Positions 19,980 through 54,036 of a stretch of 64,000 bases of DNA are shown piece by piece (position 1 is the first letter of the stretch; every line of letters starts with the position of its first letter). Source of the stretch: an uncultured Candidatus Cenarchaeum sp. (GTDB lineage Archaea > Thermoproteota > Nitrososphaeria > Nitrososphaerales > Nitrosopumilaceae). Where the stretch lies: assembly GCA_958295735.1 (NCBI GenBank), contig OY282369.1, forward strand, positions 2,332,983-2,396,982, read 5' to 3'. Below the pieces are notes generated by a model, which was not told where the DNA came from, ran no database searches, and worked only from the letters and a program-made list of their open reading frames with translations. Made by a program: the position numbers and the translations under genes.

Positions 19980-20622
19980 CGTTATGGCGTGCCTCCGCCA
20001 CGCGACCTCCCCCAATCACCATTCACGATCATGCTGGGGGCATCGAGGAGCGATGCCGACGTATGGGAGTCCGTGAGTTTTGTTTGGAACGGAGACAGAC
20101 GCGCTTCGCGCGGCGCAGATGTTGCGCCGTTGGTCGGCGCCGGCGCCCCCCCGCCCCGCGCGTTGAGCTACACCCGGGGGTTCCTGGCGGCGAGGGCGGA
20201 GTTGATCTTCCCGCCCCGCGCGAGTTCCTCCTCCAGCTGCTTGCTTGCTTCCCCGCGCGGGCGCGGGCCGCCGCCGCACGCCTTCTTGCACGCCCGTCCC
20301 TTGCCCCGCGTTATCCCCGCCTGCTTTTCGATCTTCTACTCCGGCCCCGCGTCTCCGCGCTGGGCCTTGCAACCGCCGCGTCGCGGGTCGCGAGGGTCCC
20401 GCCGCCGGCCCTCTTGCGGGAGCGCCTGAACTTCGCCGTTTGTGATGGGCAAGAACAACGAACTGTAAAAAAACCTCCAATTAACGCCGTTTAAAAACAT
20501 GGCGTAGAAATCCGCCTTCAACCAACCGCTGTTGCGCGGCCTGGGATTTTGCCCGCACGTCTGGAATGCCCGCGAATCTTCCTCACAAGCGTGATCTCGT
20601 GCCGTTCTCATCCATCCACTTA
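19980..20622. other. duplicated spacer with degraded coding remnants
   Basis: Contains TATGGCGTGCCTCCGCC (19983), a small perfect hairpin GCATCGAGGAGCGATGC (20040), and minus-strand frames with traces such as KQLEEELARGGKIN that need frame changes. The last 40 bases (20583-20622) are the final codons of the membrane gene seen intact at 26273-26578, cut by the IS. No intact gene. Confidence 0.45.
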
Positions 20623-31950: not shown

Positions 31951-32043
31951 CTGCTGGCCGCGCACAATCGGGCAGAATCGACCATCGAATCTATTTTTTC
32001 GCGCGTTGGCTGCGCGTGCAAAAGGCACGCCGAAAGCCACAAT

Positions 32044-32072
32044 CAATTGTTATATAACGCGGGCGCGTAGAC
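32044..32072 (+). promoter_or_regulatory. cassette promoter P4
   Basis: GTTATATAACGCGGGCGCGTAG, the same core as P1-P3 but on the plus strand; TATA at 32050-32057, ATG at 32084. Confidence 0.8.
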
Positions 32073-32083
32073 GCCGCAAGAAC

Positions 32084-33220
32084 ATGAATGGCAAGACAAA
32101 ATACGCGATACCGCTCTTGGCGCTGGCGTTCCTGCTTCCAATCGGGCTGGCGGAAGCGCAGAACGCGCCGGGAGGAGAGGAGCCCGAACCGACTGGTCCC
32201 GCCGCGACCGTAAACGAAGACAACAAAGGGCAGGAAATCGACACGATAGAAAAGCTGACGGAGCCGCAAGAGTTTGTGGGACGGCACACAACCGACGCGA
32301 GACAGATTGGGGACTACCTGTACGTCAGGCACACGTACACCAGCGACGAGCTGGGGCATCTCGGGATCGACCGCGTCTTCCGCGAGGAGGTGCACCCAAT
32401 TCCGGCCGCCGCGTCCGGAGAGGAAATCTCACAGTTCGTCAACACTTCGACCACCAGCGAAAACTACACGATGAGCCTTGTCCACGGGGACGACGTTTCC
32501 ACGTTCGACAAAATGCGAATCAACGGCACGGAAATATCCGCGCAGTCGTTCCAGCAGTGGAACATCGTGAAGGCCGAAAAAACCGTCAGCACGCAGATAA
32601 ACAACGTGGACTACTGGCCGGTCTCCCACGAGGATTGGGCCTCCAAAAAATCGGGGCACGCATACCAGTCGTACGATCCGATCAACCTGATTTGGAGCGA
32701 CACGGTTTCCGGATCCGAGACGCTGATGTCGAAGGTAAGCTCCAAAATGCAAAGAGCCGGATGGGATGACATTTGCTTGTCTACCGATCTGTACGTCAAC
32801 ATTGGCGGAACGTGGACAAAGCAGGACAAGCACTATATTGACCAGTTTGGACCATTGCCGTGCTTCCAATACCACATCAGGGCGTGGGAAATCGACGGCA
32901 ACTCCATGATTGGCTCCGCGCACAAGGAAGATGCAGGCATTAAACTCCCCTTCGAAAGGATCGACCTGCGGCACACCTACCGCTCCGGTAACAGCTACAC
33001 AGAACAGCGTGTGTCTTACTTGCTACCGGCATACCACTCCCTGACCGGCTTCGACGTTGCCGAGGACGAGGCTGCGGGCGAGTTTGCCGGCGGCTGCTGG
33101 AGCGTTGCAAAGGATTCGCACTACCTTGGAAACCAATACACCAGAGAGACGATAAGGTTCGGCAGTGTTGAGAATACGGCAAGCAACAACGGTTACGCAA
33201 CGGTCATCCGTTGCTCCTAA
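32084..33220 (+). CDS. cassette 4 secreted protein
   Basis: A 378-residue protein from ATG 32084, about 30 bases after the TATA. Signal peptide 1-26 (MNGKTKYAIPLLALAFLLPI...AEAQ). The mature part starts acidic and Pro-rich (GGEEPEPTGPAATVNED), then shows a beta-rich domain with Trp/Tyr-rich segments (VDYWPVSHEDWASKK, INLIWSDTVSGS) and four cysteines (DDICLS, LPCFQYH, GGCWSVA, VIRCS). Residues about 303-317 (NSYTEQRVSYLLPAY) are the variable patch against cassette 5 (PSHTERDISTMLGGY), and a smaller change follows near the end (RFGSVE/RNGGVE). No family recognised. Followed after 12 bases by a membrane gene. Confidence 0.75.
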   Translation: MNGKTKYAIPLLALAFLLPIGLAEAQNAPGGEEPEPTGPAATVNEDNKGQEIDTIEKLTEPQEFVGRHTTDARQIGDYLYVRHTYTSDELGHLGIDRVFREEVHPIPAAASGEEISQFVNTSTTSENYTMSLVHGDDVSTFDKMRINGTEISAQSFQQWNIVKAEKTVSTQINNVDYWPVSHEDWASKKSGHAYQSYDPINLIWSDTVSGSETLMSKVSSKMQRAGWDDICLSTDLYVNIGGTWTKQDKHYIDQFGPLPCFQYHIRAWEIDGNSMIGSAHKEDAGIKLPFERIDLRHTYRSGNSYTEQRVSYLLPAYHSLTGFDVAEDEAAGEFAGGCWSVAKDSHYLGNQYTRETIRFGSVENTASNNGYATVIRCS

Positions 33221-33232
33221 CTTTTTTTACTC

Positions 33233-33508
33233 ATGCTAACCAGGCGCGGTTTTGTAAAGTGGGGGCTGGCGGCGGCGCTGCCCGTCGTAATTACGGCCAT
33301 ATTAGTACACTCACTTCCGCTCTTACTTGGTGCGCTTTCGTTTCTTCTTTTTGCGTTGTTTTTTTCAGAGATTTCTGTATTCGCCATCTCCGTTATGGCG
33401 GCATCATTCCTGAACAGATCAAAACGCTTTACGCTGCTGGTCTCGGCCGGAGTGACGTCCGCGTATGCTTGCTTCATATGGTACTGGTCGGCGTCCGGCT
33501 TGTCGTAG
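33233..33508 (+). CDS. cassette 4 membrane partner
   Basis: A 91-residue hydrophobic protein beginning MLTRRGFVKWGLAAALPVVI. Three membrane segments are likely, at about 10-25, 33-56 and 68-83. Compared with cassette 5, the loop and second helix differ densely (HSLPLLLGALSFLLFALFF versus YSLPHGAGVYILFLLFF), as does the C-terminus, while the flanks are identical. It may anchor or neutralise the secreted protein; this is inference. Confidence 0.7.
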   Translation: MLTRRGFVKWGLAAALPVVITAILVHSLPLLLGALSFLLFALFFSEISVFAISVMAASFLNRSKRFTLLVSAGVTSAYACFIWYWSASGLS

Positions 33509-33540
33509 AACACGTATGGCACCACCAAAAAGTTTTTGTG

Positions 33541-33585
33541 ACGGGCTTCTTGAACAGAAACTGCCTAACGTCCAAGTGGAACCGT
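33541..33585. repeat. relic of IS630-type element B
   Basis: GACGGGCTTCTTGAACAGAA and the next 25 bases match the 3' end of the element B transposase (near 20739). Only this scrap remains, next to a copy of element A. Confidence 0.6.
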
Positions 33586-33605
33586 AGCAAACACGATGAA
33601 GAAAT

Positions 33606-34979
33606 AAATTATTCGATAATCCGCGGCCGGCGCGCCCGGCGGATGCCGGTTTTGTGCGCGGTTGCGGCGAGCCGGACCGCCGCGCGGGGGGCGGATCGGG
33701 CCATCCGCGGCGCAGCAAGGCGCGGAGCGGCCGGCATCGCCGCGGAAAAGTGGCGCGGAAGGCCGCGCGCGCGCGGCCGGGGGCGGCCGGGGGCGGCCGG
33801 GGGGCGCCGCGGCCGGCACGCCGGGCAGCCGAACAGCCTAGCGGGCTTCAGCTCCTACGTGCGGAATGTCTCGCGTACGTACTCCATCTCCTCGAGCGTC
33901 CCGGAGATCTTGCCGGCGAGCGCGCGCTTGATCGCCCGCCACAGCACCTCGATCGTGTCCATCTCCGGCGCGTGCGGAAGCAAGTACTCCAGAATAATCT
34001 CCCGTCGGGGGATTCCGGGAACTTTTCGACCTTCGCCGACTTGTGGTACGATGCGTTGTCCACGAACAACGGCATCTTGACGAATTTGTCGCGGGCGCGC
34101 CCCAGAAAGTCGATGCAGTTGTCGGCGTTCGCCTTGCCGTAGAACACGTAGAAGAACACGCCCGCTACCAGGATCCCGAAGATCTGCCCCTTTTCCCGCG
34201 TCGGGCAAGAGCGGGACAGGGCAGCGATGACGAGCCGGAACTGCCCGTAGCCGGGCCTGTTCTGGGCCTTTTCTATGCCGGCATTGTCGCCGTCCGCCGC
34301 CGTGTGGCACTCCGCCGCCTTTTTCCGCGCGAGCTCGCCCGCGCGCTACTTGAACTCTTCCTGCTTTTTCTTAGAGGCGGCGCCCGGGTTCCTCGGCCGC
34401 GGCTTCCTCCGCGAGAACTTCAGCCTTTTGAGGATGTCCCGCATCCCCGACTTGCTCTACTCCGCGCCGAACTTCTGCTTGACATGCAGACTGGCGAGGT
34501 CGGAGTTCCACTGGCCGGACCCGAAGCCGCACCGCTCGGGGCCCTTGTCGAGATCCGCCGCGAGCTGCTTGATCTGGGCCCCGTCCGGGCGGCATTTCCT
34601 CCCGCGCCCCTCGCGCTCGCCCCTCGCGCGTATGCCCTCATCCAGGGCCCGCGCCAGCCAGTTGTGCGCGGCGGACCCGCGCCGGTCGACGTTGGCGGCA
34701 ATCTTGCCTGCCGTCTTGCCCGCCTTCCTCTGCGTGTGGGCGGACAGCCTGTCGCGCCACCTGGTGTCCTTCTCCTGCTTGTAGCACCGCTTCAGGTACG
34801 CCATGCAGGTGTTGGGGAGGAACCCTGCCCTCTTCGCCTTAATCGCCGGTCCTGCCACGGTCCCGCATCGCGGCCCGGGTTGTCAACTGTGCGTGCCAAG
34901 AATAATCACAAATCGGTGAATTTTCTTGCGTCCCGCCGCGGCATCCGTTGGGCGCTCCGGCCACAGGTCGTCGAATAAT
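33606..34979. mobile_element. IS630-type element A, copy 2 (degenerate)
   Basis: Inverted ends TTATTCGATAATCCGCGGCC (33609) and TCGTCGAATAAT (34968-34979) match copy 1 at 5131-6525. It separates the two 1.55-kb cassette duplicates. Confidence 0.75.
33855..34858 (-). pseudogene. IS630-family transposase (element A), frameshifted
   Basis: The N-terminal 133 codons from 34858 (MAGPAIKAKRAGFLPNTCMA) end at a stop. The catalytic half survives in other frames at 34310-33855, with FVDNASYHKSAKVEKF and TIEVLWRAIKRALAGKI, and ends YVRETFRT. At least two frameshifts. It shows what the C-terminus of copy 1 looked like before its stop mutation. Confidence 0.8.
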
Positions 34980-35088
34980 CCCCTTCGTCGTTTTTACTAT
35001 GGCCGCGCACAATCGGGCAGAATCGGCCGGCGGCGCATTTTTTTCGCGCGTTGGCTGCGCGTGCAAAAGGCACGCCGAAAGCCACAAT

Positions 35089-35117
35089 CAATTGTTATAT
35101 AACGCGGGCGCGTAGAC
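35089..35117 (+). promoter_or_regulatory. cassette promoter P5
   Basis: Same as P4; TATA at 35095-35102, ATG at 35129. Confidence 0.8.
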
Positions 35118-35128
35118 GCCGCAAGAAC

Positions 35129-36265
35129 ATGAATGGCAAGACAAAATACGCGATACCGCTCTTGGCGCTGGCGTTCCTGCTTCCAATCGGGCTGGCGGAA
35201 GCGCAGAACGCGCCGGGAGGAGAGGAGCCCGAACCGACTGGTCCCGCCGCGACCGTAAACGAAGACAACAAAGGGCAGGAAATCGACACGATAGAAAAGC
35301 TGACGGAGCCGCAAGAGTTTGTGGGACGGCACACAACCGACGCGAGACAGATTGGGGACTACCTGTACGTCAGGCACACGTACACCAGCGACGAGCTGGG
35401 GCATCTCGGGATCGACCGCGTCTTCCGCGAGGAGGTGCACCCAATTCCGGCCGCCGCGTCCGGAGAGGAAATCTCACAGTTCGTCAACACTTCGACCACC
35501 AGCGAAAACTACACGATGAGCCTTGTCCACGGGGACGACGTTTCCACGTTCGACAAAATGCGAATCAACGGCACGGAAATATCCGCGCAGTCGTTCCAGC
35601 AGTGGAACATCGTGAAGGCCGAAAAAACCGTCAGCACGCAGATAAACAACGTGGACTACTGGCCGGTCTCCCACGAGGATTGGGCCTCCAAAAAATCGGG
35701 GCACGCATACCAGTCGTACGATCCGATCAACCTGATTTGGAGCGACACGGTTTCCGGATCCGAGACGCTGATGTCGAAGGTAAGCTCCAAAATGCAAAGA
35801 GCCGGATGGGATGACATTTGCTTGTCTACCGATCTGTACGTCAACATTGGCGGAACGTGGACAAAGCAGGACAAGCACTATATTGACCAGTTTGGACCAT
35901 TGCCGTGCTTCCAATACCACATCAGGGCGTGGGAAATCGACGGCAACTCCATGATTGGCTCCGCGCACAAGGAAGATGCAGGCATTAAACTCCCCTTCGA
36001 AAGGATCGACCTGCGGCACACCTACCGCTCCGGTCCCAGCCATACGGAGCGCGATATAAGTACTATGCTTGGGGGATACCACTCCCTGACCGGCTTCGAC
36101 GTTGCCGAGGACGAGGCTGCGGGCGAGTTTGCCGGCGGCTGCTGGAGCGTTGCAAAGGATTCGCACTACCTTGGAAACCAATACACCAGAGAGACGATAA
36201 GGAACGGCGGTGTTGAGAATACGGCAAGCAACAACGGTTACGCAACGGTCATCCGTTGCTCCTAA
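35129..36265 (+). CDS. cassette 5 secreted protein
   Basis: A 378-residue paralogue of cassette 4, identical over the signal peptide and about the first 300 residues. It carries PSHTERDISTMLGGY in place of the 15-residue patch of cassette 4, then returns to identity (HSLTGFDVAEDEAAGEFAGG) with only a short second difference near residues 357-359. All four cysteines are kept. The gene is intact and followed after 11 bases by its membrane partner. Confidence 0.75.
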   Translation: MNGKTKYAIPLLALAFLLPIGLAEAQNAPGGEEPEPTGPAATVNEDNKGQEIDTIEKLTEPQEFVGRHTTDARQIGDYLYVRHTYTSDELGHLGIDRVFREEVHPIPAAASGEEISQFVNTSTTSENYTMSLVHGDDVSTFDKMRINGTEISAQSFQQWNIVKAEKTVSTQINNVDYWPVSHEDWASKKSGHAYQSYDPINLIWSDTVSGSETLMSKVSSKMQRAGWDDICLSTDLYVNIGGTWTKQDKHYIDQFGPLPCFQYHIRAWEIDGNSMIGSAHKEDAGIKLPFERIDLRHTYRSGPSHTERDISTMLGGYHSLTGFDVAEDEAAGEFAGGCWSVAKDSHYLGNQYTRETIRNGGVENTASNNGYATVIRCS

Positions 36266-36276
36266 CCTTTTTACTC

Positions 36277-36552
36277 ATGCTAACCAGGCGCGGTTTTGTA
36301 AAGTGGGGGCTGGCGGCGGCGCTGCCCGTCGTAATTACGGCCATATTAGTATACTCACTTCCGCATGGTGCGGGCGTGTATATTCTTTTCCTGTTGTTTT
36401 TTTCAGAGATTTCGGTATTCGCCATCTCCATTATGGCGGCATCATTCCTGAACAGATCAAAACGCTTTATGTTGCTGGTCTCGGCCGGAGTGACGTCCGC
36501 GTATGCTTGTTACGTGTGGTACGAGATGTCCAAGGGGCTTCCGGGCGGCTAG
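36277..36552 (+). CDS. cassette 5 membrane partner
   Basis: A 91-residue paralogue of 33233-33508, with the first 25 residues the same and three likely membrane segments. Variable parts: YSLPHGAGVYILFLLFF in the middle and CYVWYEMSKGLPGG at the end. Position and spacing repeat those of cassette 4. Confidence 0.7.
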   Translation: MLTRRGFVKWGLAAALPVVITAILVYSLPHGAGVYILFLLFFSEISVFAISIMAASFLNRSKRFMLLVSAGVTSAYACYVWYEMSKGLPGG

Positions 36553-36689: not shown

Positions 36690-38060
36690 GTGCCAAACTC
36701 GGCAAAGCGGCAGAACGCCACCCTCTTGAACGAGGTCGGGAAGCTGGAAGCGGAGCTGGCGGCGGAGCGGGCGTGCTGGAAGCCGCCCTCCGCCGCGGAC
36801 CGGCTCAAGCGCAGCGATCCCTGGCTCATGCGCAGGCTCGAGACGCTGGACGCCGTCATGTCCAGCTGCCGGCACCTGAAGTGCTGCGCCGGGCTGACGC
36901 TGGAGAAGTTCCGGCACCTGCTTCCCCCGTCCGTCGGGGCGATCGAGCGCTCGGAAAAGGCCCCGCTGTTCGGGGCCGGCGGGGCCGGCGCGTCGGATCC
37001 CGGCAACGGGCGCAAGCTGGAGCACGGGCACGCCCTTCTCCCCGCCCTCATGAGCTGCAAGGCCGCCGGGACGCAGGGGCGGCCGGCCGCCCAGTCCGGG
37101 GCGGCCCGGAGCGCCGCCTGCGAGTACCCCGAGGCACGCGCGCCGGCGCCGGCGGAGATCCCGCCCACGCCGGACGACATCTCCAAAAAGACGGCTTCGC
37201 GCAAGACGGACGGGGAGCGCAAGAAGTTCATCCCCTGCAGGGCCGGCGGCGATCCGACGGTGTACGGCGCCGGGGCGCCCCGCGCGCGGCCCTCCGGCGG
37301 GGAGCAGGAGGACTTCCATGCCGGCGCGAACAGGATGCACTGCGCGAACAGGATGCACTGCGCGAACAGGATGCACTGCGCGAACAGGATGCACTGCGCG
37401 AACAGGATGCACTGCGCGAACAGGATGCACTGCGCGAACAGGATGCACTGCGCGAACAGGATGCACTGCGCGAACAGGATGCACTGCGCGAACAGGATGC
37501 ACTGCGCGAACAGGATGCACTGCGCGAACAGGATGCACTGCGCGAACAGGATGCACTGCGCGAACGCGGCAGCGGCGGTCAACTGCAATGAGGCGCTCGC
37601 GTACGGGAGCGTGCCGCTCCCCGGCAGCCGGCGCTACATCGCCATGTCGGGCGGGATGGCCGGGGCGTTCCCGAGCATGGCGGATCCCGACACGCCCGGA
37701 GAGAAGAGGATGCGGCTGATCGGGGACGCGGGGTTCCGGGGATCGGAGAAGCGCCTTCCCGGGATCGTGCCCGCGAATCCCGCCGAGGGCCGCGAAAAAG
37801 GGGCTCACCGCGGCCCGAAAAGAGAGGAGCGGGAGGACCAGCAGGAAGGTGACGGGGGTCGAGAACGCGTTCGCGCGCGTGAAGGTCTTCGGGGTACTCC
37901 GCAGGGCGTTCAAGGGAACCCCGGAGCAGTTCGGCCCGGTGTCCAACGTCGCGGCGGGCCTGGCCAACTCCGCCGGGACGTTCGAGGAGATAGCCGCCGG
38001 CGCCGGCCCGTACGGATCCATGGTGGCCGAGATTCGCGGGGAGCGGCTGAAGCGGCCCCC
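36690..38060 (+). pseudogene. DDE transposase relic carrying an 18-bp tandem array
   Basis: From GTG 36690 the frame reads a helical N-terminus (LLNEVGKLEAELAAERACWK, then LTLEKFRHLLPPS) and DDISKKTASRKTDGERKKF. It then runs through the 18-bp array and on to GSRRYIAMSGGMAGAFPS, RMRLIGDAGFRGSEKRLPG. After a frame change near 37850 it ends VENAFARVKVFGVLRRAFKG and NVAAGLAN. The Asp in GDAGF and the VENAF glutamate suit a DDE_Tnp_4/IS5-like enzyme. The array sits in the core, and the frameshift removes the end, so it is dead. No terminal repeats found. Confidence 0.6.
37326..37565. repeat. 18-bp tandem repeat, 13 units
   Basis: CGAACAGGATGCACTGCG repeats 13 times without visible variation. As 18 is a multiple of three it stays open in all three plus-strand frames. 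There are no spacers. Perfect identity points to very recent expansion. Confidence 0.95.
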
Positions 38061-42897: not shown

Positions 42898-43340
42898 CGG
42901 AATGTTCGGCAATCCGCGGCCGGCGCGCCATGCGGATGCCGGTTTTGCGCGCGGCCGCGGCGATGCCGGCCGTCCCGCGCCCCTTTCCCGCGGCGATGCC
43001 GGCCGTCCCGCGCCCCTTTCCCGCGGCGATGCCGGCCGCCCCGCGCCCCTTTCCCGCGGCGATGCCGGCCGCCCCGCGCCCCTTTCCCGCGGCGATGCCG
43101 GCCGCCCCGCGCCCCTTTCCCGCGGCGATGCCGGCCGCCCCGCGCCCCTTTCCCGCGGCGATGCCGGCCGCCCCGCGCCCCTTTCCCGCGGCGATGCCGG
43201 CCGCCCCGCGCCCCTTTCCCGCGGCGATGCCGGCCGCCCCGCGCCCCGCCGCCCCGCGCGGCGGTCCGGCCCGCCGCGACCGCGCGCAAAACCGGCATCC
43301 GCCGGGCGCGCCGGCCGCAGATTGTCGAATACTGCATTTC
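42898..43340. mobile_element. MITE derived from IS630-type element A
   Basis: The two ends are inverted copies of the right end of element A: CGGAATGTTCGGCAATCCGC at 42898 and, inverted, GCAGATTGTCGAATACTGCA at 43317. Matching sequence continues inwards for about 60 bases (GGATGCCGGTTTTGCGCGCG). There is no transposase gene. The interior is a 33-bp tandem array grown from a sequence that occurs once in element A (near 6380). It could be moved by element A transposase. Confidence 0.8.
42959..43255. repeat. 33-bp tandem repeat, about 9 units
   Basis: GGCGATGCCGGCCGYCCCGC plus 13 bases, repeated. The first two units carry T, the later ones C, at one position (GGCCGTCCC versus GGCCGCCCC). No spacers. 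Confidence 0.95.
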
Positions 43341-43457: not shown

Positions 43458-43570
43458 GGCGCGCATGCCGCGGGACCGGGATGGCTTGGGGTTGCCGTGC
43501 ATAACCCCCTCGGGGTCAACCCCCTCAACAGGGCGCGCGTGCCGCGGGACCGGGATGGCTTGGGGTTGCC
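43458..43570. repeat. 40-bp direct repeat at the giant gene start
   Basis: Forty bases from GGGCGCGCATGCCGCGGGAC (43458) recur at 43531 with one change (ATG to GTG). The first copy contains the proposed start codon. Confidence 0.85.
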
Positions 43571-46500
43571 TGCCCCTGCATCCGCGCGCGGGATCCCGCG
43601 GGCCGGCGAAAAGCGGCGCCCCGCGCCCCCGGGCGGAGGCGCGGGGCGCCGGCGGCAAGGCCGCGCCAAGCGGCTGCCGGGGGCGATCCTCCGGCGCGCG
43701 CAATCCCGCGTCCAGGCGGGGGGGGGGGGAGGGAAACGGAAAGAATGAAGGGGCCGCGCCCGCCAAAATCCCGGGGCCGTCGGCATCGCGGCGCCTGCTG
43801 CTGCTCGCCGCAGTCCTGATCCCGTCCGCGGCCCTCTTCCTCGCGGCCCCCGCCTCCGCGCCGCCCGCGCACGCGGACAGCCACCAACTGACCGCCGAGA
43901 TTTCAAACGGCACGGACTCCCCCACCGCCTTGGCGTCCGTGCCGTTCGTCATGAAGTTCAACAAGGGCGTAGACCACACGACCCTCAGCGCGTCCGACAT
44001 CGTCGCCTCCTCGGGCACCGTGCAGAACCTGCGCCTAATGCCGCAACTCAGCGCAACTTTCGGCAGCCGCGGCTCGGGCACCGGCCAGATAGACCGGCCG
44101 AACGGCGTGGAGGCAGACGGCACGTCCGGCAAGATATACGTGGCCGACACGTTCAACAACCGCGTCCAAGTCTTCCATTCCAACGGGAGCCACGCCGCCA
44201 GCATCGTCGCATCCAACCCGTCTTTCAACTCTCCGAACGGCGTGGAGGTCGACGGCTCGGGCTCCCTATACGTGGCCGACACGTGGAACGGCCGCGTCAG
44301 GATCTTCGATTCCGGCGGGAGCCACGTCGCCGACATCACAGGGTTCACTAGGCCTACCGACGTGGCGGTGAGCGGCTCGGGCCACATACACGTGGCCGAC
44401 AGGGGTACCCACGTCGTCAGCATATTCGATTCCGACTGGAACCACGTCACCAACATCACCGGGTTCGACCAGCCGTCCGGCGTGGCAGTCGACGGCTCGG
44501 GAGCGATATACGTGGCCAACACGAACAACAACACGGTGAATACGTTCAACTCGGCCCGCGAGAGCACCGGCCTTCTCCCGACCACATTCCGCACGCCGTC
44601 CGGCGTGGCAGTAGACGACATCTCTGGCACGATATACGTGGCCGACACGTACAACAACCGCGTCAAGATATTCAACTCCACGCGGCAACACGTCGCCGAC
44701 CTTCCCGGTGGGTTTTCGCGCCCGATCGACGTGGACATCAACGGCACCACGGGCAAGATATACGTGGCAGAGAGGCCAGTTGAACGCATCCGTATATTCG
44801 ACACCGCGTACGCGTTCGACGTGGCGGATCCTGCCGCCGGGCGGCTCGCGGTGAGCCTGCCTGCCGGCCGCGTGCAGGATGCGGGCGGCAACGCGAACGA
44901 GGCATCCAACACGGAAGTGATCGTCATAGAGAGGAGCCCGACGGCCACCATCACCACCCCCGCCCAGCCCGGCCCCACCAACTTGGCGGCGGTGCCATTC
45001 CGCCTGAAATTCAACGAGCCGATACGCCCCGCGACCCTCGACGCGTCCGACATAAGCGCCTCTTCCGGCACGGTGCAGAACCTGCGCGTGTCGCCGCTCC
45101 ACACCCGCACCATCGGCGCGCCCGGCAGCGGAGACGGCGAGTTCGGAGATCCGCGCGGCGTGGCCGTGAACGGCTCGGGCTTCATACACGTGGCCGACCA
45201 AGACAACTCGCGCGTCCAAATATTACGCCCCGACGGGACTTACAACGGCAGCATTGCCGGGTTCACCAGACCAACCGGCGTGGCGGTAAGCGACTCGGGC
45301 GCCGTGTACGTGGCCTACATGGATGCCGGCAACGTCAGCAAGTTCAACCCCGACGGGAGCAGCGCCGTCATCATTAGCGGACTCAGCCAGCCAAGCGGCG
45401 TGGCAGTCGACGGCTCGGGCGCCGTGTACGTGGCCGACACGGGCGCCGACAACGTCCGCAAATTCCACCCCAACGGGAGCAGCGCCGACACCATCAGCGG
45501 GCTCAGCCAGCCAAGCGGCGTGGCAGTCGACGGCTCGGGCGCGATATACGTGGCCAACACGGGCGCCGGCAACGTCCGCAAGTTCAACCCCAACGGGAGC
45601 AGCGCCGCCACCATCAGCGGACTCAGCCAGCCAAGCGGCGTGGCAGTCGACGGCTCGGGCGCGATATACGTGGCCGACACGGGAAGCGACACGGTCCGGA
45701 TCTACAGTTCCGCACTGCAGTCGGCTGCCAACATCACCGGATTTAGCGAACCGCGCGGCGTGGCAGTCGACGACTCTTCGGGCACCCTGTACGTGACAAG
45801 CAACAACACCGTAAAGGCGCTTGATCTCGCGTACGCGTTCGACGTGGCGGATCCGGCCGACGGGCGGCTCGCGGTGAGCCTGCCTGCCGGACGCGTGGAG
45901 GACACGGCCGGGATCGGGAACGAGGAATCCAACACGGCGGAGATCGGCGTAGACAGGACGGCCCCGATGCCCGCCACAACCTCCGCGCAGTCCAGCCCGA
46001 CCAACGCCAGGACGATCAATTTCACGGTCGCCTTCAGCGAGCCCGTCACCGGGTTCGAACTGGCCGGCATCGCGCTTTCGGGGACGGCCGCGCCCGGCAA
46101 CGCGACCGACTTCGCGGGCAGCGGCGCCTCGTACACGTTCGGCGCCTCGCCCTCGACCGACGGGACCATACTGGTCGACGTCCCCGCGGGCGGGGCGCGG
46201 GACGAGGCCGGGAACGGCAACGCCCCCGCGGAACGGTTCTCGATCACGTACGACGAGACGGCCCCGGTCCCGGCGCTCGCCGCGGAGGCGCCCGGCCCCA
46301 CCAACCTGACGGCGGTGCCCTTCAACCTGACCTTCAGCGAGCCCGCAAACGCGATCGCCCTCGCGGCCTCGGACGTCGTCGCCTCCTCCGGAACGGTGCA
46401 GAACCTGACCAGCGCATGGCCGCCCAACGCGACCTTCGGCGGCCGAGGAACTGGCCCCGTGCAGTTCGACAACCCGTCCGGCATCGCCGTCGACGGCTCG

Positions 46501-49500
46501 GGAAACATCTACGTGGCCGACCGGGGAAACAACCGCATCCAGGTGCTCGACTCTTCCCTGGAGCGTGTCGCCAACATTACGGGGATCAGCACACCGTACG
46601 GCGTGACGATCGACGGTCCGTCGGGCCGCATATACGTGGCCGAATTCAGCCGCAACGTCGTCAGCATATACGACCACGGCAGAACCCAAGTCGCCGAACT
46701 AGACGACGACTTCGCCCAGCCGGTCGACGTGGCGGTGGGCGGCCCGTCGGGCCGCATACACGTGGTCGACTTCGGCAACGACCGCGTCCGCGTGTACGAC
46801 TCCTCCTTGGACTTTGTCGACGATATCACCGGGCTCAACAACCCGTTCGGCGTGGCGGTGGATGCCTCCGGCATCACGTACGTGACCGAGAGGGACGGCA
46901 ACCGCGTCAGCATATACCGCCCCAACTTTACCCTCGCCGGCCACATCACCGGGCTCAGCAGCCCGTACGGCGTGGCGGTAGATGCCTTCGGCAGCATATA
47001 CGTGGCGGACTTCGGCAACGACCGCGTCCGCGTGTACGACTCCTCGAGGGCCCGCGTCTCCGACATCACGGGGCTCAGCGGCCCGTACGGCGTGGAGGTC
47101 GACGGCGCCGCGGGAGCCCTGTACGTGACCGAAAGGACCGCCCACCGCATCCGGACATTCGATGCGCCGCACGTCGAGTTCAACGTGGCGGATCCGGCCG
47201 ACGGGCAGGAGCTCGCGGTGAGCCTGCCGGCAGGCCTCGTGCACGACCTGGCGGGAAACGAGAACGCCGCCTCCGATGCGGCGAGCATCCGCGCAGACAG
47301 GACCGCCCCCGCCCCCAACGTAACCTCCGCGCTGCCCGGCCCGACCGCCGCCCCCACCATCCCGTTCGCGGTGGACTTTGGCGAGAACGTCACCGGGTTC
47401 GAGGCAGGCGACATCGAGCTTTCGGGGAATGCCTCCGGCGTAAGCGTCGGCAACTTCTCGGGCAGCGGCGACTCGTACACGTTCTACGTCTCGCCCGCGA
47501 CCAACGGGACCATACTGGTCGACGTCCCCGCGAACGTAACCCATGATGGGGCCGGAAACATCAACACCGCGGCGGACCAGTTCTCGATAACGTACAACAG
47601 CGCGGTCTCGACCCCGACCGTCACGGCCACGCAGCAGAGCCCCACCAACGCGGCGACGATCAATTTCCTGGTGAACTTCAGCAAACCCGTCATCGAGTTC
47701 ACGGCAGGCGGCATCGAGCTTTCGGGGACCGCCGCGCACGGCGGCGTCGGCAACTTCTCGGGCAGCGGCTCCCTGTACACGTTCGACGTCTCGCCCACGG
47801 CCGACGGCACCATACTGGTCGACGTCCCAGCGGGCGCGGCGCGGATTGATGCGGGCATCAACAGCACCAAGTCGGCCCAGTTCCAGATGACGTACGACGG
47901 CACGGCCCCGGCCCCGACCATCACGGCCGCGCAGCGGGGCCCGACCAACGCCAGGACGATCAATTTCACGGTCGCCTTCAGCGAGCCCGTCACCGGGTTC
48001 GAACTGGCCGGCATCGCGCTTTCGGGGACGGCCGCGCCCGGCAACGCGACCGACTTCTCGGGCAGCGGCGCCTCGTACGCGTTCGGCGCCTCGCCCGCGG
48101 CCGACGGGACCATACTGGTCGACGTCCCCGCGGGCGGGGCGCGGGACGAGGCCGGGAACAACAACACCGCGGCGGAACGGTTCTCCATAAGGTACGACGG
48201 CACGGCCCCCGTCCCCGCCTTCGCCGCGGCGCGGCCCGGCCCCACCAACCTGACGGCGGTGCCATTCAACCTGACATTCAGCGAGCCCGTGAACGCGTCC
48301 ACCCTCGAGGCCTCGGACATAAACGCGACCTCGGGGACCGTGCGGAACCTGCGCGACGCGTGGCGGCCCGGCGCGACCTTCGGCAGCGGCCCCGGCTCGG
48401 GCCCCGGCCAGTTCAACGAGCCGTCAGGAATAGCCGTCGACGCCTCCGGCACGATATACGTGGCCGACAGGGCCAACAACCGCGTCCAGGTGCTCGACTC
48501 CGCCGGAGGCCACGTGGCCGACATCACGGGGCTCGCCTGGCCGAACGGCGCGGCGGTCAACGCCTCCGGCTACCTGTACGTGGCCGACACCAACGCCCAC
48601 GCCGTCCGCGTGTACGACCCCAGCAGGACCAAAGTCGCCGACATCGCCAACGCCACGGACCCGTTCGTCCAGCCGACCGCCGTGGCGGTCGGCGGCCCGT
48701 CGGGCCACGCCTACGTGGTCGACTACGGCAACAACCGCGTCCGCGTGTACGACTCCTCCCTGGCCCTCGTCGGAGACATCACCGGGTTCAGCCAGCCGCG
48801 CGGCGCGGCGGTCAACGCCTCCGGCTACCTGTACGTGGCCGACACCGGCGCCAACATCGTCCGCGTGTACGACCCCAGCATGACCAAAGTCGCCGACATC
48901 GCCGACGCCGCGGACCCGTTCGGCCAGCCGCACGGCGTGGCCGTGGACGCCTCCGGCTACTCGTACGTGGCCGACTTCGACAACGGCCGCGTCCGCGTGT
49001 ACGACTCCTCGTGGGACCACTCCGTCGACGTCGCGGGGCTCAGCGGCCCGCACGCCGCGGCGGTCGACCCCGCCTCGGGCGCCCTGTACGTGACCGAAAG
49101 GCCGGCCCACCGCATCAAGGCCCACGACGCGGCGCGCGACTTCGCCTTCGAGGTGGCGGATCCGGCCGACGGGCGGACGCTGACGGTGGGCCTGCCGGCC
49201 GGCCGCGTGACGGACGCGGCCGGGAACGCGAACGCCGCCTCCGATGCGGCGGGCATCCGCATAGACAGGACCGCCCCCGCCCCCAACATAACCTCCGCGC
49301 TGCCCGGCCCGACCGCCGCCTCCACCATCCCGTTCATGATAGACTTTGGCGAGAACGTCACCGAGTTCGAGGCAGGCTACATCGAGCTTTCAAACGATAC
49401 CGCGCACGGCGGCGTCGGCAACTTCTCGGGCAGCGGCTCCCTGTACACGTTCTACGTCTCGCCCACGACCGACGGCGCGATACTGGTCGACGTCCCCGCG

Positions 49501-52500
49501 AACGTAACCCAAGATGCTGCCGGAAACGGCAACACCGCGGCGGAACAGTTCTCGATAATATACAACACCACGGTCCCGGTCCCGACCATCACGGCTACCC
49601 AGCAGAGCCCGACAAACGCGGCCACGATCAATTTCCAGGTGAACTTCAGCGTGCCCGTCACCGGGTTCGAGGAAGGCGACATCGAGATTTCAAACGATAC
49701 CAAACACGGCGGCGCGATCAACTTCACGCCCCTCAACTCCACGACGTACACGTTCGGCGTCTCGCCCACGACCGACGGCACCATACTGGTCGACGTCCCC
49801 GCGGACGTGGCCCGAGATGATGCCGGAAACAGGAATGCCCCGGCAAAACAGTTCATGATAACGTACGACAGCAAGGCTCCGGTCCCGACCATCACGGCTA
49901 CCCAGCAGAGCCCGACAAACGCGGCCACGATCAATTTCCAGGTGAAATTCAACGAGAACGTCACCGGGTTCGGGGCAGGCGACATCGATCTTTCAAACAC
50001 TACCGCGCACGGCGGCGTAGACAACTTCTCGGGCAGCGGCGACTCGTATTACTTCGACGTCTCGCCCACGTTGCACGTGACCATACTGGTCGACGTCCCC
50101 GCGGGCGGAGCGCGGGACGAGGCCGGAAACAACAACACACGGGCAAAACAGTTCTTGATAACGTACGACATCACGGCCCCTGCCCCGACCATCACGGCCA
50201 CCCAGCAGAGCCCGACCAACGCGGCCACGATCAATTTCCAGGTGAAATTCAACGAGAACGTCACCGGGTTCACGGCAGGCGGCATCGATCTTTCAAACAC
50301 TACTGCGCACGGCGGCGCGGCCAACTTCGCGCCTCTCAACTCCACGACGTACGCGTTCGACGTCTCGCCGGAATCCGACGGGACAATACTGGTCGACGTC
50401 CCCGCGGGCGCAGCCCAAGATGCGGCCGGAAACAACAACACACGGGCAAAACAGTTCTCGATGGTATACGACGGCACGGCCCCGGCCCCGACCATCGCGG
50501 CCACCCAGCAGAGCCCGACCAACGCGGCCACGATCAATTTCCAGGTGAAATTCGAGGAGAACGTCACCGGGTTCGATGCAGTCGACATCGAGCTTTCGGG
50601 AACGGCCTCCGGCAGAAGCGTCGGCAACTTCTCGGGCAGCGGCGCCTCGTACGAGTTCGACGTCTCGCCCTCGCCCGGCGCCTCGCCCGCGTTAGACGGG
50701 ACCATACTGGTGAATATTCCCGCGGGCGCGGCGCGGGACGCGCCGGGCAACCCCGTCGACGTGGCAACCCGGTTCCTGATAACGTACGACGGCACGCCCC
50801 CTGCCCCGGCGATCGCCCCGATGCAGCCGGGCCCCACCAACCTGGCAGCGGTGCCCTTCAACCTGACATTCGGCGAGCCCGTGAACGCGACCGCGCTCGA
50901 GGCCTCCCACATGGAAACCTCCTCGGGCACCGTGCAGAACCTGGGCACCGTATGGCCGCACGGCGCCGACTTTGGAAGCCCCGGCTCGGGCGGCGGCCAG
51001 TTCGACGGGCCGCGCGGCGTGGACGTGGATGCCGAGGGCCGCATATACGTGGCCGACGCCGGCAACCACCGCGTCTCCATATTCAGCAGGGCGGGGCACC
51101 ACGCCGGCGACATCGGCGGCCTTGCGTCCCCGCTGGACGTGGCGGTGGGCGGCCCGTACGGCCGAATATACGTGGCCGACGCCGGCGGCAACAGCGTCCG
51201 GGTATTCGACTCCGCGTGGGAACACGTCCACGACATCGAAAACTTCAGCGCTCCGAGCGGCGTGGCGGTAGACTCCTCGGGCAACGCGTACGTGGCCGAC
51301 AGGGGCAACGGCCGCGTCCAGGTGTTCGACCACGCGTGGCGGCACGTCCGCGACGTCGGCGGCCCGCACGACCAGCCGAGCGGCATCGCGGTCGACGGCT
51401 CGGGCAGCGTGTACGTGGCCGACTCGAACAACGGCAGCGTCCGCGTGTACGATGCCGCGGGTCAGCCCGTCCGCGACATCCACGACTCGCTCGACTCCCC
51501 GTCCGCCGTGGACGTGGACCACGCGGGCAACGTGTTCGTCGCCGATGCCGGCAACGGCAGCGTCCGGGCGTTCGACTCAGCGGGGCAGCCCGTCGCCAGC
51601 CTCGCCAACTCGCCCAACAACGTGACGGGCGTGGCGGTGGACTCATCGGGCCGCGTGTACGCGGCAGACGGGGACAACCACCGCGTCACGCTGTTCGATG
51701 CGGCGCGCGCCGAGTTCGACGTGGCGGATCCGGCCGACGGGCAGGCGCTCACGGTGAGCCTGCCGCCCGGCCTCGTGCATGATGCGGCCGGAAACCCGAA
51801 CGGGGCCTCCAACACCGCGAGCATCAGCATAGACAGGACCGCCCCCGCCCCCAGCGTAACCTCCGCGCTGCCCGGCCTGACCGGCGCCACCACCATCCCG
51901 TTCACGGTGAACTTTACCGAGCCCGTCACCGGGTTCGAGGCAGGCGACATCGAGCTTTCAAACGATACCGAGCACGGCGGCGTCGGCAACTTCGCGGCCC
52001 TCAACTCCACGACGTACACGTTCGACGTCTCGCCGGAATCCGACGGGACCATACTGGTCGACGTCCCCGCGGACGGAGCTCAGGACAAGGCAGGAAACGG
52101 CAACACCGCGGCGGACCAGTTCTCGATAACATACGACAGCTCGGTCCCGACCCCGACCGTCACGGCTACCCAGCAGAGCCCTACCAACGCGGCGACGATC
52201 AATTTCCAGGTGAACTTCAGCGTGCCCGTCACCGGGTTCGAGGCAGGCGACATCGAGCTTTCAAACGATACCGCGCACGGCGGCGCGGCCAACTTCGCGG
52301 GCAGCGGCTCCCTGTACACGTTCGACGTCTCGCCCACGACCGACGGCACCATACTGGTCGACGTCCCCGCGGGCGCGGCGCGGAGCGCGGCAACAAACAT
52401 CGGCAGCACCAAGTCGGCCCAGTTCTCGATGACGTACGACGGCACGGCCCCGGCCCCGAACATCACGGCTGCCCAGCAGAGCCCGACCAACGCGGCCACG

Positions 52501-52736
52501 ATCAATTTCCAGGTGAAATTCGAGGAGAACGTCACCAGGTTCGAACAGGGCGACGTCGAGCTTTCAAACGATACCGCGCACGGCGGCGTCGGCAACTTCT
52601 CGGGCAGCGGCGACTCGTACACGTTCGACGTCTCGCCCACGACCGACGGCGCGATACTGGTCGACGTCCCCGCGGGCGCAGCCCGTGATGCTGCCGGAAA
52701 CAACAACACACCGGCAAAACAGTTCTCGATGATATA
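43465..52736 (+). CDS. giant secreted NHL/Ig-like protein, 5' part (IS-interrupted)
   Basis: About 3,090 codons up to an IS insertion; the host frame resumes at 54039. A signal peptide lies at about residues 108-137 (SRRLLLLAAVLIPSAALFLA, then PPAHADS). The start is uncertain: ATG 43465 fits a TATA, but a more usual start (ATG 43745, MKGPRPPKSRGRRHR) is one base out of frame with the signal peptide. Five NHL propeller blocks (about 44.0-44.8, 45.1-45.8, 46.4-47.2, 48.4-49.1 and 51.0-51.7 kb) repeat GVAVDGSGxIYVADT. Between them are 11-12 Ig-like modules of the type SPTNAATINFQVKFxENVTG, GTILVDVPAGxARDxAGN, FSITYD. This architecture suits an adhesin or surface matrix protein. Translation of this part alone ends at 52755 after SRVNK. 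Confidence 0.85.
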
Positions 52737-54036
52737 TAGCCGCGTAAATAAGTAACTGAGCTAATCGCGGGCGTTCATTCGGGTTGTTTTTGCGGACGCG
52801 GCGCGCCGGCACGCGCGGGGCCCGACCGCGCGCGGCGCCGTCAGATGATCTTCGCGACGGGCTCCCTGAACAGAAACCGCGTGACGTCCAGGTGGAACCG
52901 GTGCGTCCTCAGGTATTCCATCGACTCCGCGATCCTCGCGTCCACCGTCGGGTAGACCTGGTGCGCGTGCGGTTGCCGCTTGAGCGTGTTCCAGCAGGAT
53001 TCGACCGGGTTGAGTTCGGGCCACCCGGTGGGGAAGTACCCGATGCGCACGAGTCCCTCGTTGTCCTTGACGAAGTCGTTCGTGCCGATCGATCGGTGCG
53101 GCGTCGCCCTGTCCACGAGCAGCGCCACCGGGCCGTGCCGTGCCGTCACGCGCCTGAAGAACTTGATCGTCGTCTCCGTGTCGAACCTCTGCGCGTTCAT
53201 GAACGCCTGGTCGCCGTTCATGGACAGCGCCCCGAAGATCATCCTGCGCGCGTGGTTCCCCGCGTACCGCTCGCAGGCCCGCTTCCCGACCAGCGTCCAC
53301 AAGCTCCGCCTGGGCTGGTAGTCGTGCAGCAGGCTGCACTCGTCCACCACGAACGGCAGAAATCCGTCGTTTTCCGCCTCCAGGAGCCACGGTTTCAGCG
53401 ATTTTTGCCACTTTGCTACGTTTTTGACCGACTCCCTCCCGGCGCGCGCCGGCTCGGGGACCTTGGGGGAATAGCCGCCGTCGCGCAGCTTGCGGCGCAC
53501 CGCCCCCTCGCAGTACGCGATGCCGGTCTTCTCCTTCACCTTCTCCGCGAGCAGCTTCGGGAACCTGCACGGCGCGTCCCCCTCTTCCATGAATTCGGTG
53601 AGCTTCCGGTTCGTCATCTTGGGCGGGCGGCCGGGGCGGGGGCGATCGCCCAGGCCCTTGAGCCCTTCCCGCAGGTAGCGCTCGTGCCGCGCCCTGATCG
53701 TGTTGTACGACTTGTACATGATCCTCGCGACTTCCCTGTAGCTTTCCTCCTCGATCACGATCCTGCAGATTCCGTGGATCCTCGTCCTCTTGCGGGGATC
53801 CTTTTCCGTCGCGAGGGCGTGCATGAGCTCCGCGCGGGCCGGCATGCCGCGCCCCCGGAAACAATCTAAATGAACGTTCCGGATCGGCCGGGCGTTTTTT
53901 CCCAATTATTGCGCAATTTGATCCCTCGCGGCCCGGGACGCGGCACCCGCGAAAAACGGCCCGAATCAGCCCCCAGACTAGCTCAGTTACTTATTCCGCC
54001 GCCGAAGACCAGCTCAGTTACTTATTTCCGTGGCTA
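52737..54036. mobile_element. IS630-type element B, copy 3 (1300 bp) in the giant gene
   Basis: Ends TAGCCGCGTAAATAAGTAAC and, inverted, GTTACTTATTTCCGTGGCTA. It is flanked by TA at 52735 and 54037. Removing the element and one TA restores ATGATATACGACGGC (MIYDG) in frame with both halves. Confidence 0.95.
52841..53845 (-). CDS. IS630-family transposase (element B, copy 3)
   Basis: An intact 334-residue transposase beginning MPARAELMHALATEKD. Same helix-turn-helix and DDE residues as copy 2 (D168, D245, E282) with a small number of substitutions (for example RHERY for WHERY, ACERYAGNH for AYEWYTGNH). It runs opposite to the host gene. Confidence 0.9.
   Translation of the reverse strand: MPARAELMHALATEKDPRKRTRIHGICRIVIEEESYREVARIMYKSYNTIRARHERYLREGLKGLGDRPRPGRPPKMTNRKLTEFMEEGDAPCRFPKLLAEKVKEKTGIAYCEGAVRRKLRDGGYSPKVPEPARAGRESVKNVAKWQKSLKPWLLEAENDGFLPFVVDECSLLHDYQPRRSLWTLVGKRACERYAGNHARRMIFGALSMNGDQAFMNAQRFDTETTIKFFRRVTARHGPVALLVDRATPHRSIGTNDFVKDNEGLVRIGYFPTGWPELNPVESCWNTLKRQPHAHQVYPTVDARIAESMEYLRTHRFHLDVTRFLFREPVAKII

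Follow-up and report, generated by a model that had tools for sequence, protein, structure and literature searches.

Two copies of a two-gene cassette, each consisting of a gene for a 378-aa secreted protein followed by a gene for a 91-aa membrane protein with three predicted helices, lie in register in an archaeal genome with an offset of 3045 bp. The copies are identical over long tracts and densely different in short patches, which raises the question of how such islands of difference arose between two otherwise matching copies, and whether their presence in both partner genes bears on what the pair does. A first-pass annotation of the window (the whole stretch of 64,000 nucleotides analysed here, in which all positions are given unless a locus is named) had drawn attention to the patches and proposed either block exchange or selection for matched specificity.

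Layout and genomic setting of the cassettes

The host genome is a single contig of 3.17 Mb that encodes a match to archaeal AmoA (E 1.7e-118) and, judged by its sequence, the host is an ammonia-oxidising archaeon. A search of this genome returned the two cassettes and no further copy. Both stand out in the G+C profile, with about 53–60% compared with more than 70% around them (53–56% for the cassette genes themselves). The secreted protein has one hydrophobic N-terminal segment, at residues 7–25. The two copies share the same TATA-like archaeal box, and a similar GATATAAC stretch precedes the secreted gene of the relative L003 (see below). The coordinates of the features are collected in Table 1.

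In each of the four loci of the window type, a run of five to seven T residues separates the secreted gene from the membrane gene (33221–33232 and 36266–36276 in the window, 6136–6148 in L003 and 1591–1602 in L019, where the secreted gene is eroded), and is possibly a leaky archaeal terminator that tunes the ratio of the two products.

The surroundings of the cassettes are rich in duplications, with other near-identical direct duplications at 20239–20538/25929–26228, 20621–20920/21601–21900 and 22581–22880/22903–23202. The window also holds a perfect 18-bp tandem array inside a reading frame (37324–37565), a near-perfect 33-bp tandem array (42955–43284) and a 3096-aa reading frame (43465–52755) with NHL-like and other tandem repeats that are mutually about 60–90% identical at the DNA level.

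Table 1. Features of the two cassette copies and their insertion-sequence neighbours (positions in the window).
Feature	Position	Strand	Remarks
Cassette copy A	31955..33487	+	26-bp left end, promoter, secreted gene, membrane gene to IS junction; from alignment and G+C profile
Patch 1, non-coding	31981..31993	.	Upstream of promoter; ACCATCGAATCTA in A, GCCGGCGGCGCAT in B (35026–35038)
TATA-like archaeal box	32050..32057	+	TTATATAA; ~27 nt upstream of start codon
Secreted protein, copy A	32084..33220	+	378 aa, N-terminal signal peptide
Patch 2, copy A	32990..33030	+	Hypervariable, codons 303–316; 22 differences; 4 codons synonymous, 9 non-synonymous
Minor patch	33158..33164	+	Codons 359 (F/N) and 361 (S/G); variable against L003 too
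Membrane protein, copy A	33233..33508	+	91 aa, three predicted helices; last 7 codons inside antisense IS630 fragment
Patch 3, copy A	33308..33355	+	Hypervariable helix 1–helix 2 loop, codons 26–41
IS630 transposase remnant	33487..33528	-	YVFYDKPDAD; supplies copy A membrane C-terminus in antisense
Second IS630-type transposase	33848..34840	-	Broken; between the cassettes
Cassette copy B	35000..36528	+	Duplicate in register; from alignment
Secreted protein, copy B	35129..36265	+	378 aa, 97% identical to copy A
Patch 2, copy B	36035..36075	+	
Membrane protein, copy B	36277..36552	+	91 aa
Patch 3, copy B	36352..36393	+	

Divergence within the secreted gene

The secreted genes are 1137 nt each and differ at 25 sites. 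The annotation had described about 900 identical bases, a dense patch and renewed agreement, and the alignment bears this out: the first 906 nt are identical, with no change in 200 synonymous sites, 22 of the 25 differences fall within the roughly 42 bases of patch 2, and there follow 127 identical nt, the three differences of the minor patch and identity to the end of the gene. When 25 differences were placed at random 20,000 times, no 45-bp window received more than 8, against the 22 observed. Synonymous change is confined in the same way, with 0 of 242 sites changed outside patch 2 and about 6 of 10 (9.7) inside (Fisher p = 6e-10), and a serine codon switch (TCT/AGT) within the patch indicates that the divergence there is old.

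A sliding-window codon comparison, as the annotation had proposed, was made against L003 and placed patch 2 first among 311 windows for non-synonymous divergence, whether copy A or copy B was used (pN 0.67–0.74 and pS 0.53–0.67 in the patch; pN 0.11–0.16 in neighbouring and upstream codons). Over the 42 bases of the patch L003 matches copy B at 6 sites and copy A at 5, with all three differing at 11, so that the direction of exchange cannot be read from this relative.

Searches of the secreted family against Pfam, NCBIfam, PHROG and PDB gave no match, and no known toxin domain or fold; the predicted structure of the protein was unusable (pLDDT 35). Kinship with LssY_C (PF14067), which had been suspected from an HIRAW-like motif, was dropped after Pfam gave no hit to these proteins and none in the host's own genome.

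Divergence within the membrane gene

The adjacent membrane genes, which had been reported to differ in a block and at their ends, do so: codons 1–25 are shared, a block at codons 30–41 differs by a two-codon gap and substitutions, scattered changes lie downstream of it and the last 7 codons are different. Patch 3 covers the loop between predicted helices 4–27 and 33–61 (a model of modest confidence, pLDDT 64), and the positive-inside rule suggests that this helix 1–helix 2 loop and the C-terminus face outward. The loop is variable in all four membrane homologues (copies A and B, L003 and L019). The sites of difference between A and B match those of the disjoint pair L003/L019 (p = 3e-4), and the coinciding positions sit in the helix 1–helix 2 loop and the C-terminus. 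Past its block the membrane gene carries 3.5 synonymous changes in 30 sites (p = 1.4e-4 versus the unpatched secreted gene), so that a very recent duplication does not by itself account for the two copies.

Block exchange, as first proposed, agrees with the synonymous contrast in the secreted gene and fails at the end of the membrane gene of copy A, where the C-terminus is antisense IS630 sequence from about 33487; longer copies of this remnant are present elsewhere in the genome. Neither the non-coding patch 1 nor this IS-caused C-terminus calls for an argument from specificity.

Origin of the mosaic

The annotation had placed the differences in patches of the two partners only. Both genes are indeed patched, but patch 1 lies in non-coding DNA, bounded on its left by the 26-bp identical tract that opens the cassette at 31955, and islands of difference therefore need not concern specificity.

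Aligned with each other, the cassette copies form a mosaic, part of it old in ancestry and part recent, and it is well supported by their sequences that recombination, as block exchange or gene conversion, shaped them. A tract of 906 identical bp followed by dense differences, synonymous ones included, is a pattern that recombination between diverged alleles can produce and that point mutation after duplication cannot. Positive selection on point mutations after a fresh duplication is ruled out, as synonymous change is saturated within patch 2 and absent outside it. Most simply, duplication or repeated acquisition may have put two diverged versions of the cassette into one genome; homologous recombination or gene conversion would have erased most of the differences between A and B, most strongly in the first 1 kb, and islands of old divergence would be left between the copies, perhaps kept distinct by selection. 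Donor versions of the patches, which the annotation had suggested seeking, were not found: the copy-A patch does not occur elsewhere in the host's own genome, and exact scans of IMG/VR returned neither patch.

Two further explanations of the patches fit the locus poorly. A programmed diversifier that writes the patch, such as a diversity-generating retroelement or an invertible (shufflon) system, would suit a sharp-edged variable block that lies, within the secreted gene, close to its 3′ end, but is scarcely credible and was rejected, since the changes in patch 2 are mixed and show no adenine specificity, the copy-A patch has no second occurrence in the genome that could be a template, flanking inverted repeats are absent and other patches occur in the adjacent gene and in non-coding DNA. 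An artefact of assembly or binning, in which two strains were merged or repeats mis-assembled, could be suspected from the perfect repeat of the first 906 bp; it is very improbable given that the genome stands on a single contig, that both copies are in frame and intact with distinct flanks, and that the same positions vary in relatives assembled independently.

Relatives and distribution

The cassette is absent from the single genus mate compared and from all other sampled genomes (250 of the family and 398 of the phylum). One full relative, L003, has a secreted protein that is 69% identical and a frame broken once near the N-terminus, and lies on a 35-kb contig (CATQGX010000001.1) binned in a gammaproteobacterial metagenome genome, where its neighbours are an integrase-like gene, restriction systems, a topoisomerase-like gene, an actin-like gene and transposases. 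This contig is probably an archaeal mobile element that was mis-binned. It is plasmid-like, carries a topoisomerase-like gene and has a promoter that looks archaeal. The same bin contains L019, in which the membrane gene is intact and the secreted protein is reduced to its last ~25 residues. The low G+C of the cassette, its absence from the sampled genomes of the family and phylum, and a relative beside an integrase-like gene and transposases make horizontal acquisition of a mobile cassette the best explanation of the sequence data. A viral or phage origin was also considered and rejected, as no relatives were found among phage records or in IMG/VR.

Distant homologues of the secreted protein are encoded on haloarchaeal plasmids, as exported hypothetical proteins that are mostly Tat-signal-like. 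The first lead to them was a set of weak tblastn matches (E 0.6–3). A profile built from five of the haloarchaeal proteins picks exactly A, B and L003 among 840 reading frames (E 1.5e-13 to 4e-12), and profile–profile comparison (hhalign) of the haloarchaeal and window types gives 96% at E 1.8e-9, with 40 shuffled decoys at no more than 0.7%. By these comparisons the secreted proteins of the two types belong to one family. A gene of 126–132 aa lies directly 3′ of every haloarchaeal secreted gene examined, its product being multi-helix by hydropathy where tested, and an exported-protein gene directly adjoins a small partner gene in both window copies, L003 and five haloarchaeal loci. The patch 2 region is of unexceptional variability among the haloarchaeal proteins, so its hypervariability is restricted, as sampled, to the thaumarchaeal-type branch.

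The secreted gene is eroded and the membrane gene intact in three loci, L019, L025 (N-terminal half of the secreted protein lost) and L037 (last 20 residues remaining), a pattern like that of orphan immunity genes; on haloarchaeal plasmids, L032, L033, L035 and L036 have membrane-type genes with no detectable secreted partner. In L037 (Halobacterium hubeiense plasmid pSTJ001, 2101–2865) the intact membrane gene is followed by a second, frame-broken copy. L032 (2021–2881) and L036 (2030–2893) encode double-length fusions with the haloarchaeal membrane-partner domain in tandem, and no secreted gene was detected alongside. L038, on a plasmid of Halobacterium, encodes a secreted protein of Tat type whose C-terminus is rich in Cys (211–1146), upstream of a frame-broken membrane-partner gene (2501–2877); this Cys-rich neighbour is halocin-like by eye, and its identity as halocin C8 was rejected for want of a profile match.

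Comparison with known systems

Among halocins, halocin C8 comes with an immunity protein. Halocins, for example halocin H4, are secreted archaeal antimicrobial proteins, several of which are encoded on haloarchaeal plasmids (PMC6759562), whereas the haloarchaeal homologues of the cassette protein are annotated only as hypothetical proteins. The burkhocins, colicin M-like bacteriocins of Burkholderia, are accompanied by BmiA immunity proteins of ~106 aa with three membrane helices and a short extracytoplasmic loop; the pairs lie in low-G+C regions, and orphan immunity genes occur elsewhere (PMC4661593). The cassette is a close architectural match, with an adjoining small three-helix membrane gene, a low-G+C region and orphan partner genes, but no sequence relation to them was found and no colicin M domain was recognised in it.

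As PMC4548480 describes, crediting Riley (1993) and Tan and Riley (1997), divergence in DNase colicins, S-type pyocins and their Im proteins is concentrated in matched recognition regions and is attributed to recombination and positive selection. The cassette pair resembles these systems in being otherwise conserved with divergence concentrated in both partners; it differs in that colicins and pyocins are nuclease toxins with soluble immunity proteins, while the cassette partner is a predicted membrane protein. Divergence in the cassette is concentrated within both genes, where any recognition surfaces would be putative, and also in the non-coding patch 1. In the VARTIG modules of Thermococcales, which lie on islands acquired recently, small membrane-protein genes come after the gene for a hypervariable secreted protein, and inter-microbial conflict is among their proposed roles (PMC8416519). 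VARTIG proteins are large and have immunoglobulin domains, unlike the cassette secreted protein, in which no such domain was recognised.

Function of the pair

We consider it somewhat probable that the cassette is a horizontally acquired, mobile pair of an archaeocin-like secreted toxin and a membrane immunity protein, belonging to an uncharacterised archaeal family. The first gene product would be an exported 378-aa antimicrobial, presumably toxic, and the second a 91-aa membrane protein with three predicted helices that would confer immunity. The orphan membrane genes, low G+C, patchy distribution and adjacent membrane partner together make a pattern like that of bacteriocins and their immunity genes. 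Weighing against a toxin–immunity pair are the secreted family, which has no toxin domain or known fold, and the membrane partners, since homology between the thaumarchaeal and haloarchaeal ones was not detectable by profile comparison (8% probability).

The islands within the proteins sit on family hypervariable spots of both partners, where toxin–immunity specificity would be expected. Selection for matched specificity, the other proposal of the first-pass annotation, is accordingly a plausible reading in part: hypervariable spots in both partners, with those of the membrane protein predicted to be extracellular, are consistent with matched partners in a comparison of two alleles and two close relatives (L003 and L019), but the non-coding patch and the IS-derived end call for no such selection, and among the haloarchaeal proteins the region of patch 2 shows no special variability. 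The patches may instead be neutral leftovers of gene conversion in change-tolerant loops, with no matched specificity; this could hold for a toxin with its immunity protein and equally for any other kind of pair. The similar density of the non-coding patch, synonymous sites that have diverged within the patch as much as non-synonymous ones, and the weak constraint that loop variability often reflects all accord with neutrality, which we nevertheless regard as rather unlikely because, against L003, pN in the patch is at least as high as pS and far above its value in neighbouring codons, and because variable spots are present in both partners.

An alternative that dispenses with antagonism is a surface pair, in which an adhesin, receptor-blocker or signal is held or recognised by the membrane partner, for instance in symbiosis or cell–cell recognition, and the patches serve escape from phage or host recognition. 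An exported protein paired with a small protein of several helices, variable surfaces predicted to face outward and the lack of any toxin domain found would all suit it, as would an ammonia-oxidising host whose only non-haloarchaeal relatives come from an uncultured metagenome bin. It is unlikely, however, as the haloarchaeal homologues are on plasmids of free-living species, the distribution is very patchy, and the secreted gene has been lost repeatedly while the membrane gene was retained (L019, L025, L037), which fits immunity and not an adhesin accessory.

Implications

Extending the toxin–immunity reading, we tentatively propose, at less than even confidence, an unnamed archaeal antimicrobial family with fast-diverging membrane immunity proteins that is common to ammonia-oxidising archaea and haloarchaea, one genome having come to hold two specificities via patch exchange in both partners. 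To our knowledge, and with the main survey of archaeal toxins lying outside this comparison, ammonia-oxidising archaea have not been described as making a protein antimicrobial that comes with its own immunity protein. If the proposal is right, it would provide a testable weapon and immunity system in a major, mostly uncultured archaeal group, with culturable haloarchaeal homologues that would allow direct assay, and it would extend to Archaea a colicin-like diversification through patch exchange.
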